DNA from: a bacterium
GTDB lineage: Bacteria > JAMCPX01
Assembly: GCA_021792615.1 (NCBI GenBank)
Contig: JAJYUJ010000060.1
Location: forward strand, 1 to 9,813
Length of the DNA stretch: 9,813 nt
Reading direction: 5' to 3'
The translations under genes were made by a program, and so were the position numbers. The notes below the pieces were generated by a model, which was not told the DNA's origin, did not search any database, and saw only the letters and a program-made list of their open reading frames with translations. Position 1 is the first letter of the stretch, and each line of letters begins with the position of its first letter. Shown piece after piece: positions 23 through 7,803 of the stretch.

Positions 23-1570
23 TCATAGGTTTATAACCTTCCTTAAGAGCGTGGGAATAATGTTCAAACTATCCGTGGAATCTTTATTTAAAACAAATAT
101 GGGATCATCGCTATCCGAGGTTAGTAATTTTTTCAAGGTTGGTATAACCTTGGCCTTCTCATCATGTCCGTCAGGTGTCACAAAAACGTACGTTACCGGC
201 AGAGTCTTGGCGCTCCTAAACTTTTGTATCGCGGACAGGAACGCCCCGAGGATTTCTTTTGAACCCTTATCGAACACGACGATAACCCCGACAGCACTAC
301 TGGACAAGGCCATCCATAAAGGGCCATATTCAATCAATGGAGGCACCGAGATGATCTCTATGCTTAAAAGCTCCGTAAGGGATACCAGACCGATCTCGCC
401 GAACACGACATCGTCCCTGCTGCCCGATACTGCAAATGAACTGTTCAATACAAATCTCGGCGTATTGTTGATGCTATTGACGAATGTTTTCAGGGAATTG
501 TAATTGGCGGACAACACGACAACCCTTCCTCTGTGCGATTCCAGCTTCGTATGCTTGTTTATTGAAACGATATCCAGCAGTTTGAATATCTCTTCGTTTG
601 CCAGAAGAGTACCTTCACGATCGCTGGTCTTCGGCGTTACGTGCTGTACAATCTCTATAATGCCTTTTTCAAGGAGGGCAACCAGTACCCGGAGTACATC
701 ATAATCCGGGAATGTGCAGTTATCCACGATGTCCTCCACCTTGTTGTAGAATTCGAGTAGCAGCAATACCTCCTGCGTGATTGTCCTCACCTGTTTCGGC
801 AATTCCGAGAGTTTTTTCTTCAATTTTACGACAGCATCGAGCGGCGGGAGAACATCTTTATTCTTCTTCATTTCATCGATCTGCCGCATCCCTTCCATCA
901 GCAGGGATTCCGTCGTCGCTGCGATCCTTGTCGGTGTCAGCGCACGATGCGGTATAAATTCGAACTTGCCGTTCTTGACGGTAAGCAACCGGTAAAAGGC
1001 CTTTACGCCTTCGACTTTTTCAAATGTGGCGTTTATGATGTTCCCTTCCTGCAGATAGATGAAACCATTTCCCTTATCCGAGTATATGGTTATGGTACCG
1101 TCTTTCTTGTTCATGCTGAATATCTGGAGCAGATCGATCAGCGATATCTGGGACAGGTTCCCTTCTATTTCCTTGTTTTCCCTCGACAACTCTATGGTCT
1201 TTTGCCGCTTCTGATAGATGCCGGATATGGTGCCGATAAGCGCGTCGATCCTGAATGGCTTCGTTATGACCTTTTCTCCCATGGCGCTTACGGACTTCAA
1301 TTGCTCGGGCGTACCCATGAAAATCAATGCGAGGTTATCCGTCTTTGGATTCACGCTGATAATGTCTCTGAGTTTCACCGTATCTATAATCGGAAGCTGC
1401 ATGCCGAGTATGATGATGTCCGGAAGCTGCTCGATGATCGTTTCGAGGGCCTTTGCTCCGTTAATAGCCGAATAAATGCTATAGCCCTGGGCTTTCAATG
1501 CATCTTTTATCAGGACGACTGATTTCTGATCCGTATCCGCTATAAATATTTTACCCTTTGATTTCACCAT
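23..1570 (-). CDS. Receiver-like / PATAN (DUF4388) / degenerate GTPase-like protein
   Basis: Cytoplasmic signalling protein of 515 residues; no signal peptide or membrane segment is seen. Domains in order: a receiver-like domain (about 5-120), a PATAN/DUF4388 domain (about 134-235, with LLQIF, a YLQEG turn and the closing LLMEGMRQIDE), a winged-helix-like segment (about 258-308), and a C-terminal domain (about 345-515) whose layout resembles MglA/Ras-like GTPases. The receiver keeps acidic residues D12 and D14 and Lys103 (TKPF), but the phosphoacceptor position is Gly56 (ILGMQLP), so phosphotransfer is not expected. The GTPase-like part has an eroded P-loop (A355 and L360 where glycines belong, K361-T362 kept), and the usual TPGQ and NKxD motifs are not recognisable. 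PATAN domains are known as regulatory modules in gliding, adhesion and polarity systems; the role here is inferred to be protein-protein signalling. Last gene of the miaB operon, starting 4 nt after the preceding stop. Domain assignment is firm for receiver and PATAN, tentative for the C-terminus. Confidence 0.88.
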   Translation of the reverse strand: MVKSKGKIFIADTDQKSVVLIKDALKAQGYSIYSAINGAKALETIIEQLPDIIILGMQLPIIDTVKLRDIISVNPKTDNLALIFMGTPEQLKSVSAMGEKVITKPFRIDALIGTISGIYQKRQKTIELSRENKEIEGNLSQISLIDLLQIFSMNKKDGTITIYSDKGNGFIYLQEGNIINATFEKVEGVKAFYRLLTVKNGKFEFIPHRALTPTRIAATTESLLMEGMRQIDEMKKNKDVLPPLDAVVKLKKKLSELPKQVRTITQEVLLLLEFYNKVEDIVDNCTFPDYDVLRVLVALLEKGIIEIVQHVTPKTSDREGTLLANEEIFKLLDIVSINKHTKLESHRGRVVVLSANYNSLKTFVNSINNTPRFVLNSSFAVSGSRDDVVFGEIGLVSLTELLSIEIISVPPLIEYGPLWMALSSSAVGVIVVFDKGSKEILGAFLSAIQKFRSAKTLPVTYVFVTPDGHDEKAKVIPTLKKLLTSDSDDPIFVLNKDSTDSLNIIPTLLRKVINL

Positions 1571-1574
1571 ATTC

Positions 1575-3443
1575 TTATATCTGCCTCTGTAAGAAATACT
1601 TCTCCTGCAGCACGGCGACGAGCTCTTCCACGATAATCGGATCGCTCGTATGGAAAACGGAAAATTGCTTGCTGCTCGATTCGTTCGTTATAAAGCCGTA
1701 AGCGTATTCCTCGTTCAGGTTGAACATAAAAAACCTGTTGCCGATATCTTCGTTGATAATCATGATGGGGGCATAGGAAATATCAATATATTCTCCCTGC
1801 TGCTTCCTGCCCAGCAGGTACAGTTTGGTATTCGAATTGTATAATTTATACTGTTCCTTGATGAGTTTGATGTCTTTCGTTATGGCGGGTATGCCGAGAA
1901 ATATAAGACCGCGCATGAACGGCCGTGCCAGTATATCGCTGGAAAGAAGGTTTATAATATCCATAATGCGTTCTTTCGTAATAATGAATATGGCATTGGT
2001 GATATCGTCACCTTTTTTATCCGCATCCTTGAATATCCTGAGAATGTTGTCGGAGAACTCCATAAAGCCGAGTGATTCCATGGATGTGATTTCTTTAATT
2101 CTGCCGGTACTCGATCGCTTCGCCATATCGTAAGACTTTGACAGGAGCGTTTGTGCCGTCGTTCCGTCGTTCGGGTATGTCGCGGAACCGATGATAAGCT
2201 CCACATTCTTCGTAACCGAACCGTTGGTCACATACAATGTTTGTTTTAACTGATTCTTGATTCTCCGCATGGTAATGATAGAACCGAAATAGTCCGTATC
2301 CGGAAGAAAAAGGTTCAACATGCTCGAATGCTCGGACACAGAGAGGGTGTCCGCATCCCGTATGACCTCGTTGATCAGGGTTGTTATCTTCGTAAAGATC
2401 TCATCCACATACGGCCTGCCGAACGTCTCCACGAGATCCCGGTAGTTTTCTACGGATACGACCGCGATTGAGAACATGCCGTGTATCCTGTTCGCCCTTT
2501 TTATTTCGTTTTCCGTGTACTCGATAAAATACCGGTAACTGTACGCGGGAAGGTTATCGGCCTTCAAGGTATCGGTAATCTTTTGAGAAAGCTTCACTGC
2601 GTTGGAGGCCGCTATGCCGCCAAACGTGGAGAGGGTCCTCGCAACCCTTATGTCCTGAACGGTAAAAGTCTTCTCTTTTTTAATAAGCCTCAACAGTGCG
2701 TAAATATGACCGTCCTGGCCCTGAACAACCAGGTACATCACCTTGCGGTTGTCTGCATCCGTTACAATACAATAGCCGTCCTTGATGGATGCCCGGTGCT
2801 GGAATGTCTTCCAGCTTATCGAAGCGGGCGCATCGTAGGCATCCGATTCATAGCCGAAAGAATGCAAGAGCTCAAATTTGTCATCGTCTTTACGGGACAA
2901 GAGCAATGCCTTTGAAAGTTTTAGTTCTACGACCATGGCATCCATAAGCTTTTTAAATACATCGTCAAGGCTGGGCTGGGACAGTATATCGCTCGACCTT
3001 TTGTAAACCTCAAGCAATATCAGATACTCCATCCCTTCCTTCGCAAGTTTTTCCTTCTCCATAAACAGCCTTCTCTGGGCTATTATATTCGTCACAAGAT
3101 GGAGGAACTTGCTGTCATCGAAAGGTTTTTTGATATAGGTGTAATGTATTCCGTCATCCGGTATGAGGGTTTTAACGGAAGACATGCTTATCGACGTTAT
3201 AACCAGCACCTCCGGCTTATAGATAAGCTTTTTTGCCTTTTCAAAAATACTATTCAATCCGTCTTCATGCCGGTTTGGTTCATAGATAATCAGATCGAAG
3301 AGAGAGATGTCCAAATCGGCGAGTACGGAATTGTCATGCACGTGTACCTCGTAACCTACTCCGGAAAGCAGGTCGCGGTACAGTTCCCGGTAAAATCTAT
3401 CTTTATCGACTATCAGAATAGTGCCATTCTTCATACTGGTCAC
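1575..3443 (-). CDS. Receiver-like / GAF / degenerate GGDEF protein with an orphan C-terminal domain
   Basis: Cytoplasmic 622-residue protein, apparently a non-catalytic signalling protein. The N-terminal receiver-like domain (about 7-125) keeps D13, D15 and Lys106 (KKPF) but carries Glu55 in place of the phosphoacceptor Asp (DLIIYEPN). A helical linker leads into a GAF-like domain (about 145-290). Residues about 298-455 follow the GGDEF pattern (SYRYFIEY start, LPDTD after the active loop), but the GGDEF motif aligns to HSSML (372-376) and the metal-binding Asp position to Ser330, so cyclic-di-GMP synthesis is not expected. Residues about 460-622 are a further domain I do not recognise with confidence; its end (FHTSDPIIVEELV) loosely recalls DICT-type sensory domains. 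The start is GTG, overlapping the upstream stop as GTGA; an ATG three codons in (3434) is an alternative, and neither has a strong Shine-Dalgarno, which suits translational coupling. It probably works with the next gene, 4 nt downstream. Confidence 0.87.
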   Translation of the reverse strand: MTSMKNGTILIVDKDRFYRELYRDLLSGVGYEVHVHDNSVLADLDISLFDLIIYEPNRHEDGLNSIFEKAKKLIYKPEVLVITSISMSSVKTLIPDDGIHYTYIKKPFDDSKFLHLVTNIIAQRRLFMEKEKLAKEGMEYLILLEVYKRSSDILSQPSLDDVFKKLMDAMVVELKLSKALLLSRKDDDKFELLHSFGYESDAYDAPASISWKTFQHRASIKDGYCIVTDADNRKVMYLVVQGQDGHIYALLRLIKKEKTFTVQDIRVARTLSTFGGIAASNAVKLSQKITDTLKADNLPAYSYRYFIEYTENEIKRANRIHGMFSIAVVSVENYRDLVETFGRPYVDEIFTKITTLINEVIRDADTLSVSEHSSMLNLFLPDTDYFGSIITMRRIKNQLKQTLYVTNGSVTKNVELIIGSATYPNDGTTAQTLLSKSYDMAKRSSTGRIKEITSMESLGFMEFSDNILRIFKDADKKGDDITNAIFIITKERIMDIINLLSSDILARPFMRGLIFLGIPAITKDIKLIKEQYKLYNSNTKLYLLGRKQQGEYIDISYAPIMIINEDIGNRFFMFNLNEEYAYGFITNESSSKQFSVFHTSDPIIVEELVAVLQEKYFLQRQI

Positions 3444-3946
3444 ATCTTGTATTTACCAAAATCGGTATTGGAAAACTGCTTGAGCAATTCATCGTACTTC
3501 TTTTTTTTATCCTCGGCATTGGTATCGGATATGCCGGTTGCAGATATGATGGACTCTATGGATTTATCCAGGACACCTTTGTCTACGAATATCGAGGCGG
3601 ACATCCTCAGGGCAATTGCTATGGCATCCGATGGCCTCGAATCTATGGTAATCTCCCTGTCCATTACCTTCAAAAATAACAAGGCGTAATACGTGTTGTC
3701 TTTCAATTCCGTAATCTCGACCTTGGTTGCAAAAATGTTGAGGCCGGTTAATATGCTTTTGATAAGGTCGTGGGTATTGGGTCTTGGGGCTTTTATTCCT
3801 TCAAGCTCTATCATAATGGCGCTTGCTTCCGATACGCCTATCCAGATAGGCAGGGTATACTTGTTTTCGTTATCGCGCAAAACAACGATGGGAGTCGAAT
3901 TTACCGGATCAATCATAATACCGACCACCTTCATTTCGATAAGCAT
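3440..3946 (-). CDS. Bifunctional nuclease family protein (BFN / DUF151)
   Basis: 168-residue protein of the BFN (DUF151) family. The fold is clear from the opening MLIEMKVVGIMIDP, the segment YTLPIWIGVSEASAI, the HDLIKSIL helix and the family hallmark SRPSDAIAIALR. Plant and some bacterial members have been reported to have RNase and DNase activity, but the family-wide function is poorly established and I infer no substrate here. The tail after about residue 135 is lysine-rich and probably flexible. I chose the ATG at 3946 because GGAGG lies at 3956-3960, 9 nt upstream, and because homologues begin at this motif; a longer reading from 4003 would add 19 residues inside miaB. The start follows the miaB stop by one base and the stop overlaps the next gene's GTG, so it is embedded in the operon. 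Proximity to miaB hints at an RNA-related role, but that is inference. Confidence 0.93.
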   Translation of the reverse strand: MLIEMKVVGIMIDPVNSTPIVVLRDNENKYTLPIWIGVSEASAIMIELEGIKAPRPNTHDLIKSILTGLNIFATKVEITELKDNTYYALLFLKVMDREITIDSRPSDAIAIALRMSASIFVDKGVLDKSIESIISATGISDTNAEDKKKKYDELLKQFSNTDFGKYKM

Positions 3947-3947
3947 A

Positions 3948-5276
3948 TCATTTTTCCTCCGTAATATGTTTACCATACAATGCATTGTCCGAATAATCAT
4001 CAATCAGGACGTTAGCAACCGTGCCTTCCGGTACAGTACCTGAGAAGTTCACAATCCTCCCGTGGGCCGTCCTGCCTTGCTGCCTGCCTTGTTTTTTGCT
4101 TTCACCTTCCACAAGGACCTGCTGGAACGTGCCGGTAAGAGCGCCGTATATTTTTCTTGTTATTTCAAGCTGGGCATCCTGTAACTCCTTGAGCCGCCCG
4201 GCTATAACCTGTACCGGTACCTTACCGTCATAGGTACTCGCCCTTGCGAGCCGCCTGTCCGAGTATTTGAACGAAAATATGTTATCATAGTTTGCACGCC
4301 GTATAAACTGAATAGTGTCCCGGTGATCTTCATCGGTTTCCGACGGAAAACCAACGATAAAATCCGACGTCAGTGCGATATCGGGCATCAAAGCCCTTAT
4401 CCGGTCTATTCTATCCCTGTATTCTTTTACCGTATACCCGCGTGCCATCAGCTTTAATATTCTGTCGGAACCCGACTGGATCGGGAGGTGCAAATGCGGA
4501 CATACCTTCTGAAAATCCGTAAACGCGTGCACAAGTTCATCCGTCAGATCCTTAGGATGCGATGTTATAAACCGTATACGCTCCAAACCTTTTATATCGT
4601 TGAGAGCGGACAGGAGTTCGTACAGCGTTATCTGCCTGTCTTCTGAATTATCCCTGTACGAGTTAACATTCTGCCCGAGCAATACTACTTCTTTCACTCC
4701 GGAGGCAACCAGTGCGTACACTTCGTCTATGATATGCCGGGCATGCCTGCTTACCTCCCTGCCGCGAAGATACGGCACGGTACAGTAAGAGCAGAAATTG
4801 TCGCACCCTTCCATGATCGTAACAAAGGCCTTTACTCCCTGAACACCCCTCACTGGGTTTCTGAAGCGCTCCTGGTCCTTATCCGGTGCTACGGCAATAA
4901 CGGTCCCGTCTGTTTTAGCTTTATTGACAAGCTCATCGATCCTATGAATCTGCGAAGGTCCGACAACAATATTTAAACCTTTGAACCTGCCGAGTAATTT
5001 TTTGCCTTCCTGCTGGGCGACACAGCCGCTGAAAACAACGACCCTGTCCTTATCGCTCCCCTGCTGCCCCTTCTTAAGTCCGGTATATCGCCCTATGCTG
5101 GAATAAGCCTTTTGCTCGGCCTTTGCCCGTACACTGCAGGTGTTTACGATGACAACCTCGGCTTCCTTTGGTTTGTCGGTCTGCACATAGCCATTGTCGG
5201 AAAGAATTGCCAGCATCCTCTCTGAATCGTGTTCATTCATCTGACAGCCGTACGTTTCGATATACACTTTTTTCAT
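3948..5276 (-). CDS. miaB: tRNA-2-methylthio-N6-dimethylallyladenosine synthase MiaB
   Basis: Radical-SAM methylthiotransferase that adds the 2-methylthio group to i6A37 in tRNAs reading UNN codons. The 442 residues fit the family length. The N-terminal MTTase domain carries the three auxiliary-cluster cysteines C11 (YGCQMNEHDSE), C47 (NTCSVRAKAEQK) and C85 (SGCVAQQEG). The radical-SAM cluster is C158-C162-C165 (GCDNFCSYCTVPYLRGRE). A TRAM RNA-binding domain occupies about 375-440. The CQMN and NTCSVR signatures favour MiaB over its relatives MtaB and RimO. First gene of a four-gene minus-strand operon; its stop is one base from the next start. The start at 5276 gives the normal family N-terminus but has no Shine-Dalgarno, and the predicted transcription start lies only a few bases upstream, so the message may be almost leaderless. 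Confidence 0.97.
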   Translation of the reverse strand: MKKVYIETYGCQMNEHDSERMLAILSDNGYVQTDKPKEAEVVIVNTCSVRAKAEQKAYSSIGRYTGLKKGQQGSDKDRVVVFSGCVAQQEGKKLLGRFKGLNIVVGPSQIHRIDELVNKAKTDGTVIAVAPDKDQERFRNPVRGVQGVKAFVTIMEGCDNFCSYCTVPYLRGREVSRHARHIIDEVYALVASGVKEVVLLGQNVNSYRDNSEDRQITLYELLSALNDIKGLERIRFITSHPKDLTDELVHAFTDFQKVCPHLHLPIQSGSDRILKLMARGYTVKEYRDRIDRIRALMPDIALTSDFIVGFPSETDEDHRDTIQFIRRANYDNIFSFKYSDRRLARASTYDGKVPVQVIAGRLKELQDAQLEITRKIYGALTGTFQQVLVEGESKKQGRQQGRTAHGRIVNFSGTVPEGTVANVLIDDYSDNALYGKHITEEK

Positions 5277-5285
5277 ACTTTAAAA

Positions 5286-5314
5286 ATTGTAATAGTGATA
5301 TGAACTATTGTCAA
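5286..5314 (-). promoter_or_regulatory. Sigma-70-type promoter for the miaB operon
   Basis: Read on the minus strand, a perfect -35 TTGACA (5309-5314) is followed after exactly 17 nt by TACAAT (5286-5291), which is 5 of 6 to the -10 consensus. Transcription would begin near 5279, about 3 nt before the miaB ATG. This is a sequence prediction only. Confidence 0.72.
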
Positions 5315-5321
5315 ATAGAAA

Positions 5322-5350
5322 TGCGCAGAGACGTTGCGCATAAACGCGCA
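5322..5350. repeat. Spaced TGCGCA palindromes (candidate operator)
   Basis: Two identical self-complementary hexamers TGCGCA (5322-5327 and 5335-5340) are separated by 7 nt, followed by a near copy CGCGCA (5345-5350). They sit just upstream of the miaB -35 box and about 210-240 bp upstream of the predicted cytochrome transcription start, so they could bind a regulator of either gene. No regulator family can be assigned from this alone. Confidence 0.35.
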
Positions 5351-5534
5351 CACAGGTGGGGCAAAACACCCAGTTCACCCAGTCAGAACATTCCTGGCGT
5401 TTCATGGCGATACTCTGTTGTTATGAAAAGAATGGATAAGGATACTATCGCCTCCGCAAATTTTCTAACGGAGCATATCCTACAATACGCCTTGCTATCC
5501 ATCTGATCTGCAGGACAATGAAGAAATGAGGGTT

Positions 5535-5551
5535 CTGGTATGAATTTTGCT
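5535..5551 (+). promoter_or_regulatory. Candidate sigma-54 (RpoN) promoter for the multiheme cytochrome
   Basis: CTGG-tatgaatt-TTGCT matches the -24/-12 signature YTGGCACG-N4-TTGCW. The invariant GG (5537-5538) and GC (5549-5550) are present with the required 10-nt spacing, and the two departures are T for C in the CAC part. With the C of the -12 box at 5550, transcription would begin near 5562, giving a 24-nt leader that contains the ribosome-binding site of the gene at 5586. Confidence 0.62.
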
Positions 5552-5573
5552 TTTTTTCTGCTATTCTACGGAT

Positions 5574-5580
5574 GAGAGGA
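5574..5580 (+). promoter_or_regulatory. Ribosome-binding site fixing the cytochrome start
   Basis: GAGAGGA ends 5 nt before the ATG at 5586. It supports this start over an upstream in-frame TTG at 5547, which would lie inside the -12 promoter box and upstream of the predicted transcription start. Confidence 0.75.
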
Positions 5581-5585
5581 AAAAC

Positions 5586-7007
5586 ATGGAAGCAAATAAA
5601 GAAGAAAAAAAATCAAAAGGAATGAAACATTTTATGCGGTCCCATAAGATTCTGACTGCGATCCTGGGACTTTTATTCGTATCGTTTATTGTTTTTTTCA
5701 GTTTTGTGGAATATAGTGAAAGTCCAACCTTCTGCAAAAGCTGCCACATTATGGTCCCTTACTATAATGCATGGAAGATATCCGCACACAACTTTGTACC
5801 CTGTGTAGAATGCCATTACCCTCCGACAAACAGTCTGGAGTCTGCCGCATGGCACAAGATACAGAACTTCTCCATGGTTGTACGGTACTTTACGAAGACG
5901 TATGACCCCAGGCCGTTCGCAGATATACCAGATGCGAGTTGCATGAGAATAGGATGCCATTCCACACGGCTGCTCGTTGGCAGTGTTGTCACTCCGAAAG
6001 GCGTGAACTTTAACCATATACCGCACATGGAGCATATAAAAGACCTAAAACTGCGGTGTACAAGCTGCCATTCCCAGATCGTCGTTGGACGGCATATAGA
6101 GGTTACGTATGAAACATGCTTCCTTTGCCATTTTTCAAAACTCAATAACGAGAACAACAACAAGGATATAAACAATTGTTTGCAATGCCACCAGATACCG
6201 AGGCAAACCATCAATGTTAACGGCATATCGTACAACCACCTGGACTTTTTGGAACACAATCCGAATATAAAATGCGTTGACTGTCACCTCGACGTGATTC
6301 AAGGTACAGGCGAGGTACCAAAAGAACGCTGTTATGCCTGTCATAATATACCGGCAAGGATTGCATATTATACGGACACGACATTCATACATAAGTGGCA
6401 TGTAACTAAGCATAAAATCACCTGCACGCTATGCCACCTTGAAATCAAACACGGCCTCGAAACATCCATTAAACCGCTGGAGTACGCAAACAATTGTACG
6501 CTCTGCCACAGCCAGAACATGCATACAGCGCAGGAAGACATGTATATGGGTGTCGGGGGCATCGGAGTCAAGGGATCAGCAAGCCCCATGTTTAAGGCCA
6601 ATGTCAAATGTATCGGCTGCCATAAGGTCGCGACACAACATGGTGTGAACGCAAAGTTGTTCGGACAGACCTATATTGGAGGAGCGGTTGGATGCACGAC
6701 CTGTCATGGCAAGGGATATCAGGACATTTACACTATGTGGAAAGAAAACCTGAAATCCATGCTTGCGGATGCGGAAACCAGGCATCTCGAGGCGAAGAAG
6801 CTCATCAACGGCGCTTCCAAAAATAATACTGATTATCAGCAGGCTTTAAAGTTGTATCAGGCTGCCTCATACAATCTGTTGTTCGTAAAAGCTGCGAAAG
6901 GCATCCATAATGTGGACTATGCCTCAAGCCTGCTCGATAATGCTTCCACGAATTTTAAACAGGTTATAAAGCTCCTGACGCAGAAAACAGCACCTGCGGC
7001 AAAGTAA
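5586..7007 (+). CDS. Membrane-anchored 12-heme c-type cytochrome, NapC/NirT-like
   Basis: 473-residue cytochrome with a lysine-rich cytoplasmic N-terminus, one uncleaved membrane anchor (about 22-41) and a periplasmic heme region. Eleven CxxCH motifs begin at C50, C73, C158, C178, C198, C230, C249, C280, C304, C342 and C370, and one CX4CH motif (CMRIGCH) lies at 119-125, giving 12 predicted hemes. The first motif is CKSCHIM, the CxxCHxM form in which Met ligates heme 1 in NrfH/NapC quinol dehydrogenases. From about 141 to 308 the motifs fall in roughly three repeats of a His-rich stretch followed by two heme sites, as in c3/c7-type multihemes. After the last heme a 99-residue helical tail contains KGIHNVDYASSLL. 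The inferred job is to take electrons from the quinol pool and relay them to an unknown periplasmic or outer-membrane acceptor. Monocistronic, with its own sigma-54-type promoter and a strong terminator. It is longer than the 4-heme NapC/NrfH proteins; no known named cytochrome can be assigned. Confidence 0.93.
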   Translation: MEANKEEKKSKGMKHFMRSHKILTAILGLLFVSFIVFFSFVEYSESPTFCKSCHIMVPYYNAWKISAHNFVPCVECHYPPTNSLESAAWHKIQNFSMVVRYFTKTYDPRPFADIPDASCMRIGCHSTRLLVGSVVTPKGVNFNHIPHMEHIKDLKLRCTSCHSQIVVGRHIEVTYETCFLCHFSKLNNENNNKDINNCLQCHQIPRQTINVNGISYNHLDFLEHNPNIKCVDCHLDVIQGTGEVPKERCYACHNIPARIAYYTDTTFIHKWHVTKHKITCTLCHLEIKHGLETSIKPLEYANNCTLCHSQNMHTAQEDMYMGVGGIGVKGSASPMFKANVKCIGCHKVATQHGVNAKLFGQTYIGGAVGCTTCHGKGYQDIYTMWKENLKSMLADAETRHLEAKKLINGASKNNTDYQQALKLYQAASYNLLFVKAAKGIHNVDYASSLLDNASTNFKQVIKLLTQKTAPAAK

Positions 7008-7212: not shown

Positions 7213-7803
7213 TTGTTTTATCGTGAGAAATTTCAAGCCGGGTATACAAAAAAGATAGCCGGTAATCCTGCTGCCGGTCTCTTTTCAGGATTATGGATTG
7301 CAGTTCTATGCTTAACAGTCCTTGCAGTAAGTAGTCCAGCCCTTTCCAAATCATACAATCTGGCCATATCGAGCCATGCATTCAATAATAATGGTTTTAT
7401 CCCCGTACACTATACCTGTCAGGGAAGCGATATAAACCCTCCGCTTGCTTTTAAAAACATTCCTCCCCATACGGCATCGCTCGTATTGATACTGGAGGAT
7501 CCCGATGCCCCGGGTGGCACATTCACCCATTGGCTTCTGTGGAACATCGATCCCAAGACCCGGGGAATAGGCGGGCATGCTGTTCCGCACGGAGCAGTGC
7601 AAGGTTTCAATGATTTTGGCACAAAAGGATACGGCGGTCCATGCCCGCCCCCCGGCAATGCCCACAGGTATATATTCAAGCTGTTCGCGGTAAACACCGT
7701 ACTTCACGTCAACAGAACCATAACACGGCAAGGCCTGGAAAAAGCGATACACAGCCATATCATCGCCCATGCCCTGCTGACGGGCTTCTATAAAAGGAAA
7801 TAA
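7213..7803 (+). CDS. Exported YbhB/YbcL-type phosphatidylethanolamine-binding protein (PEBP)
   Basis: 196-residue PEBP-family protein starting at a TTG chosen from the AAGGAGG 8 nt upstream. The N-terminus is a signal peptide: basic segment, hydrophobic core (about 23-40) and likely cleavage after SPALS (residue 45), which puts the mature protein in the periplasm. The mature part holds the PEBP anion-binding signatures LEDPDAPGGTFTHWLLWNI and the later YGGPCPPPGNAHRYIFKLFAV. Bacterial YbhB/YbcL homologues have no well-fixed ligand or function, and I infer none. The n-region (about 22 residues before the core) is long for a signal peptide. The gene stands alone, converging on mscL, with a modest promoter candidate upstream and no obvious terminator after it. 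Confidence 0.93.
   Translation: MFYREKFQAGYTKKIAGNPAAGLFSGLWIAVLCLTVLAVSSPALSKSYNLAISSHAFNNNGFIPVHYTCQGSDINPPLAFKNIPPHTASLVLILEDPDAPGGTFTHWLLWNIDPKTRGIGGHAVPHGAVQGFNDFGTKGYGGPCPPPGNAHRYIFKLFAVNTVLHVNRTITRQGLEKAIHSHIIAHALLTGFYKRK

Follow-up and report, generated by a model that had tools for sequence, protein, structure and literature searches.

Two adjacent pseudo-enzymes, a GGDEF protein and a PATAN/GTPase-like protein, are conserved as a pair and may form a non-catalytic c-di-GMP receptor module

In a bacterial draft genome, two adjacent genes downstream of miaB and of a gene for a BFN-domain protein (bfn) encode a degenerate GGDEF protein (P2) and a PATAN protein with a GTPase-like domain (P1). 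Our preferred, still tentative, reading is that they constitute an old and selected two-protein module, in which P2 would be a non-catalytic c-di-GMP receptor and P1 its obligate PATAN/pseudo-GTPase adaptor. Degenerate proteins of this kind, pseudo-enzymes, are usually encountered singly. All domain families concerned are known; a fixed pair of pseudo-enzymes encoded in a miaB-bfn operon is not described in the literature searched, where we also found no paper on DUF4388 in such a setting, on miaB together with BFN and a response regulator, or on the neighbours of MXAN_5053.

Organization of the locus

The window, i.e. the whole stretch of 9,813 nucleotides analysed, corresponds to contig C37 from a draft genome of 2.54 Mb. 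Four genes on the minus strand follow each other in the order miaB-bfn-P2-P1:

5286..5314, minus strand: promoter-like pattern (TTGACA-17-TACAAT) located about 10 nt ahead of the start of miaB (pattern match only)
3948..5276, minus strand: miaB, a neighbour conserved outside myxobacteria
3440..3946, minus strand: BFN-domain protein (PF02577), a neighbour conserved outside myxobacteria
1575..3443, minus strand: P2, 622 aa, with receiver, GAF-like, degenerate GGDEF and C-terminal, tentatively DICT-like domains (start GTG at 3443 or ATG at 3434)
23..1570, minus strand: P1, 515 aa, with receiver, PATAN domain (DUF4388), winged-helix-like linker and GTPase-like domain (PF14332 2.8e-24, PF00072 9.7e-9, AlphaFold2, homologue alignment)

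The BFN domain was matched by Pfam with 127.9 bits (E 2e-37), and a nuclease role is predicted from the domain. The reading frames of BFN, P2 and P1 are intact, and P2 and P1 are separated by 4 nt, as the first-pass annotation had stated. That annotation had also reported a GTGA overlap between the BFN stop and the start of P2. The overlap, at 3443-3440, is present if P2 starts at GTG; however, the methionine with which the homologues start is conserved and corresponds to codon 4 of P2, an ATG located 5 nt past the BFN stop, and hence the overlap depends on the choice of start. The best promoter-like match (11/12 positions) lies just before miaB and is a candidate operon promoter. Since a pattern search of the window found no terminator-like match between the four genes, they are likely, as predicted from these patterns, to be carried on a single transcript. 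Divergent from the miaB operon, at 5547-7007 on the plus strand, the window encodes a multihaem cytochrome c with a NapC/NirT-like N-terminus.

P1 accompanies P2 across phyla

P1 lies directly 3' of P2 in 78/80 P2 loci, with a median gap of 27 nt, and among these 80 loci none with room for P1 but without it was flagged by the script. P2 is a single-copy gene in eight of the nine genomes compared from the window's phylum, all of one family, and in 11/12 genomes of another phylum. Distant relatives in other phyla were found in Myxococcus, Corallococcus, Archangium and Anaeromyxobacter and in many deltaproteobacterial MAGs. One Myxococcus-like P2-P1 locus (L120, BNCN01000006.1) is labelled Comamonas sp. 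KCTC 72670, likely a labelling or contamination error.

The surroundings of the pair are more variable. Among 71 loci with upstream room, both miaB and bfn adjoin the pair in 35, miaB only in 1 and neither in 35. The expected co-occurrence with miaB and bfn thus holds outside myxobacteria, where both stand 5' of the pair in 35/40 testable loci, but not for 31 myxobacterial and 4 other loci, which lack both; an obligate tie is ruled out by the myxobacterial loci. The first-pass annotation had suggested a link to BFN or to tRNA modification, of which only a shared operon is left. Direct control of MiaB or BFN activity by the pair, i.e. of the operon's RNA or nuclease function, would fit the position of both genes directly 5' in several phyla and the fact that the genes overlap or nearly overlap. 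Nonetheless, we consider it quite improbable, given the loci that keep the pair on its own and given that MiaB is widespread in bacteria where the pair is absent.

In the window's family miaB-bfn-P2-P1 is followed by a PHP-domain gene and then a large TPR gene; the window's contig ends before these. A PHP gene follows the pair in 27/69 testable loci and in none of the myxobacterial loci scanned. Two loci differ in other ways: in L062 a VanZ-like gene (7269-7637, minus strand) is inserted between bfn and P2, and in L137 genes for PilM and a PilQ-like secretin, with probable PilN/O/P (1089-5845, plus strand), lie directly 5' of miaB-bfn-P2-P1-PHP, a single case.

P2 has lost the GGDEF motif and kept the inhibitory site

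The following features of P2 were assigned:

3090..3422, minus strand: receiver in which Glu55 takes the phospho-acceptor position (sub-threshold in Pfam, 20.6 bits; homologue and PleD alignments)
2109..2561, minus strand: degenerate GGDEF domain (PF00990 6.9e-13, above the cut-off; PleD alignment)
2349..2360, minus strand: I-site motif R362-D-A-D365, equivalent to PleD R359/D362 (PleD alignment)
2319..2333, minus strand: lost active-site motif, EHSSM replacing GGDEF (sequence)
1578..2078, minus strand: C-terminal domain, tentatively DICT-like, about residues 456-622 (profile comparison)

The AlphaFold2 model of P2 (mean pLDDT 80.1) contains the receiver, a long helix, a GAF-like domain, the GGDEF domain and, at the C-terminus, a mixed domain. 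Pfam matches the GAF-like domain weakly (PF13185, E 0.13). The homology of the GGDEF domain also appears in profile matches to PleD and DgcR. The replacement of GGDEF by HSSML, noted earlier, is real; the motif reads EHSSM, or HSSML if shifted by one residue, and stands 5 residues past an intact RDAD. This complete I-site and the C-terminal domain had been missed by the first-pass annotation.

For the family-wide comparison 85 P2 sequences were used (21 clusters at 50% identity, median pairwise identity 27%); a few loci are represented by duplicate copies in all these counts, and myxobacteria are heavily sampled. The GG[DE]EF motif is present in 0/85 P2 proteins, and the equivalents of D327 and N335, the metal and guanine residues of PleD, are replaced. 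The equivalents of PleD R359 and D362 (RxxD) are retained in 84/84 P2 proteins and are among the few invariant columns; PleD R390 corresponds to R in 68 and K in 16 (n = 84). RxxD was also found in 20/22 control GGDEF domains, 17 of them with an intact motif, and its conservation alone is therefore weak and possibly structural. The argument for a working I-site, as read from the alignment, is instead the contrast within the family, where RxxD is kept and the adjoining motif is freely replaced.

GGDEF domains with a degenerate A-site and an intact I-site are known to act as receptors in PopA and SgmT (PMC3509222). The same combination is found in P2, with RDAD as its I-site. Within the window's own genome, GG[DE]EF and RxxD are kept in 6/9 GGDEF domains, belonging to six proteins other than P2, so c-di-GMP is probably made by this bacterium.

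The receiver of P2 varies by lineage: the acidic residue, Asp and Lys are kept in 38/85 proteins, the domain is absent in 28/85 and degenerate in 19/85. Canonical P2 receivers occur mostly in myxobacteria, and the window's phylum belongs to the degenerate group. The earlier statement that all catalytic and phospho-accepting sites are lost consequently describes the window and not the module, since the P2 receiver is canonical in many relatives and absent from others.

These data also bear on a pure scaffold, in which neither protein would bind a nucleotide, the pseudo-domains would serve as dimerisation or docking surfaces and RxxD would be structural. The frequency of RxxD among control domains, the family-wide loss of the A-site and of the P-loop (see below) and the missing acceptors of both receivers in the window are in its favour. 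We nevertheless hold it to be rather unlikely, because both I-site elements are kept at 27% median identity next to a freely replaced motif, sensor domains of the GAF-like and DICT-like types are present in P2, and a canonical receiver is kept by many relatives. Of the two functions proposed in the first-pass annotation, a ligand-sensing complex gains from the conserved I-site, while a constitutive scaffold stays an option.

The C-terminal domains of P2 (n = 26) matched DICT in a profile-profile comparison with hhalign (91.6%, E 8e-7, 75 columns, against only three DICT sequences), and controls stayed under 1%. Pfam PF10069 (DICT) gave no match in the window's P2 and a weak one, below the gathering cut-off, in one homologue (E 0.13). 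Based on the profile match, the domain is tentatively termed DICT-like. In two loci (L067 1742-3706 and L100) P2 contains approximately 32 extra residues, some of them undetermined, between the GGDEF and C-terminal domains, probably an assembly gap.

Another ligand, bound by the GAF-like or DICT-like domain, or phosphorylation where the receiver is intact, could be what P2 senses, with the GGDEF domain as a passive relay. The DICT match and the intact receivers are in line with this, as is the fact that P2 proteins without a receiver still have their C-terminal domain and are accompanied by P1. However, the GAF-like domain is weakly scored and missing from short P2 forms, and DICT domains have no known ligand; we regard this alternative as distinctly unlikely.

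P1 contains a GTPase-like domain without nucleotide-binding motifs

In P1 the following domains were assigned:

1208..1558, minus strand: receiver with Gly56 at the phospho-acceptor position (Pfam 9.7e-9, homologue alignment, structure search)
866..1165, minus strand: PATAN domain (Pfam)
650..784, minus strand: putative winged-helix-like stretch, helices 263-274, 278-284 and 289-301 and strand 305-307 (conserved in homologues)
26..538, minus strand: GTPase-like domain, about residues 345-515, without P-loop or NKxD (AlphaFold2, hhalign)

The PATAN match (PF14332) reached 85.9 bits against a gathering cut-off of 25. The AlphaFold2 model of P1 (mean pLDDT 77.6) shows the receiver, the PATAN domain, the helical winged-helix-like stretch and the strand/helix order of a G domain. 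When the C-terminal domains of P1 (n = 34) were compared with small GTPases by hhalign, a match of 96.6% (E 6e-10) was obtained, and the controls (receiver, PATAN, P2) gave at most 2.8%; this supports a GTPase ancestry of the domain at the profile level. Searches with the whole models (Foldseek and VIA) matched only the receiver and GGDEF/PleD and have no bearing on the GTPase-like domain of P1 or the C-terminal domain of P2.

As the first-pass annotation had claimed, the GTPase-like domain is eroded: neither a P-loop (GxxxxGK[ST]) nor NKxD was found at the expected place in the window's P1. An in-register P-loop is present in 0/84 P1 homologues, and the lone regex match among P1 proteins (L137) is out of register. 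By sequence, P1 is hence not a nucleotide switch. The residue set of a phosphorylatable receiver (acceptor Asp, acidic residue, Lys) is incomplete in both receivers of the window, and the alignments place Gly56 of P1 and Glu55 of P2 at the acceptor positions, as first described. The P1 receiver has Asp at this position in 52/84 homologues.

Intact GGDEF or P-loop motifs are thus not the norm among homologues, and the absence of both from every homologue counted means that these losses are old and fixed. Judged from the alignments, the four losses are two old, fixed ones (GGDEF and P-loop) and two lineage-specific ones (the receivers).

A second receiver-PATAN protein, with two PATAN matches, is encoded in the window's own genome on contig C66 (L074, 602-2479); its gene is followed by genes for a Zn-ribbon protein, a biotin ligase and a pantothenate kinase. 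The same contig encodes an MglA-type GTPase (C66:9544-10029).

The pair is under purifying selection

Where dS is not saturated, within genus and family, dN/dS of P1 and P2 is 0.035-0.09, similar to BFN and MiaB. Both frames are therefore under purifying selection, which is more than chance preservation of open frames. Together with the conservation of the pair and the recurrence of its neighbourhood outside this genome, this bears out the earlier view that the two genes are not decaying at random. The missing acceptor residue in both receivers might point to a formerly active pair losing its function in the window's lineage, but with intact frames, low dN/dS and identical catalytic losses in distant phyla there is next to no chance of this. 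Purifying selection, together with the occurrence of these losses in distant phyla, rules out local decay of the whole module.

Discussion

In the mechanism that we tentatively favour, P2 would not synthesize c-di-GMP; its GGDEF domain would have been turned into a c-di-GMP receptor via the retained inhibitory site. The GAF-like and DICT-like domains may provide further inputs, as may the receiver where it is phosphorylatable. P1 would act together with P2 as an adaptor that combines PATAN and a GTPase fold in one protein; having lost hydrolysis and probably nucleotide binding, this fold may serve as a fixed interaction surface. In the window's phylum both receivers are without a phospho-acceptor, which would leave ligand binding as the likely input. 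It is from domain content and conservation that we infer c-di-GMP binding, P1-P2 contact, the adaptor role and any output.

Known systems share parts of this design. PopA of Caulobacter and SgmT of Myxococcus have, like P2, a degenerate GGDEF domain, an intact RxxD and fused receiver domains (PMC3509222); P2, for which binding is predicted, differs by its C-terminal DICT-like domain and its obligate PATAN/pseudo-GTPase partner gene. The cyanobacterial regulators PixE, PixG, LsiR and PatA join PATAN to a CheY-like receiver, as does P1, and relay to effectors such as PilB1 (PMC9090330, PMC7690835). In P1, by contrast, the receiver comes first, followed by PATAN, the winged-helix-like part and the GTPase-like domain, and the acceptor Asp is missing here. 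PATAN genes are found close to MglA genes (PMC4316618). The MglA/Rup small GTPases are related by profile to the C-terminal domain of P1, which, unlike them, is fused to PATAN and lacks P-loop and NKxD. FrzS of Myxococcus uses a pseudo-receiver without phosphorylation residues for protein contact with SgmX (PMC11580455); only the receiver fold relates it to P1 and P2, FrzS having a large coiled coil and P1 and P2 other domains.

Type IV pili are targets of cyanobacterial PATAN regulators, PixE acting via PilB1 (PMC9090330, PMC7690835). By analogy a surface or pilus output of the pair could be imagined, although we think it improbable. Co-occurrence was uninformative, PilM being present in nearly all genomes tested whether or not they carry the pair. 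In Myxococcus xanthus P2 is L150 (616 aa counted from GTG), which, judged from size and residues, is probably MXAN_5053, a protein of 617 aa (PMC4877007). MXAN_5053 is a response regulator with at least two specificity residues in common with DifD (PMC4671073), and Phe and Asp of L150 fit these shared residues. An MXAN_5053 deletion is in the strain list of a study in which 20/24 such genes had no effect on development, and MXAN_5053 is missing from the GGDEF proteins reported to affect T4P motility or development when deleted (PMC4877007). T4P motility defects were reported only for deletions of DmxA, SgmT and TmoK (PMC4877007), hence a strong motility role of P2 in M. xanthus is unlikely.

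A bolder form of the proposal is a phylum-spanning single-copy module in which c-di-GMP or a new ligand is sensed by a pseudo-diguanylate cyclase with a DICT-like domain, which then acts on a PATAN protein with a fused, silenced GTPase, all wired into a miaB-bfn operon. In this full form the idea is unlikely; if true, it would represent a PATAN/MglA-type switch that operates independently of a nucleotide. Two pseudo-enzymes, one from the c-di-GMP and one from the small-GTPase system, are fixed neighbours in all intact loci examined, which come from myxobacteria, deltaproteobacterial lineages and candidate phyla. The pair can be studied in culturable carriers (Myxococcus, Corallococcus, Anaeromyxobacter), and the receivers, phosphorylatable, dead or missing depending on the lineage, offer a natural series on the loss of phospho-input from a signalling complex.
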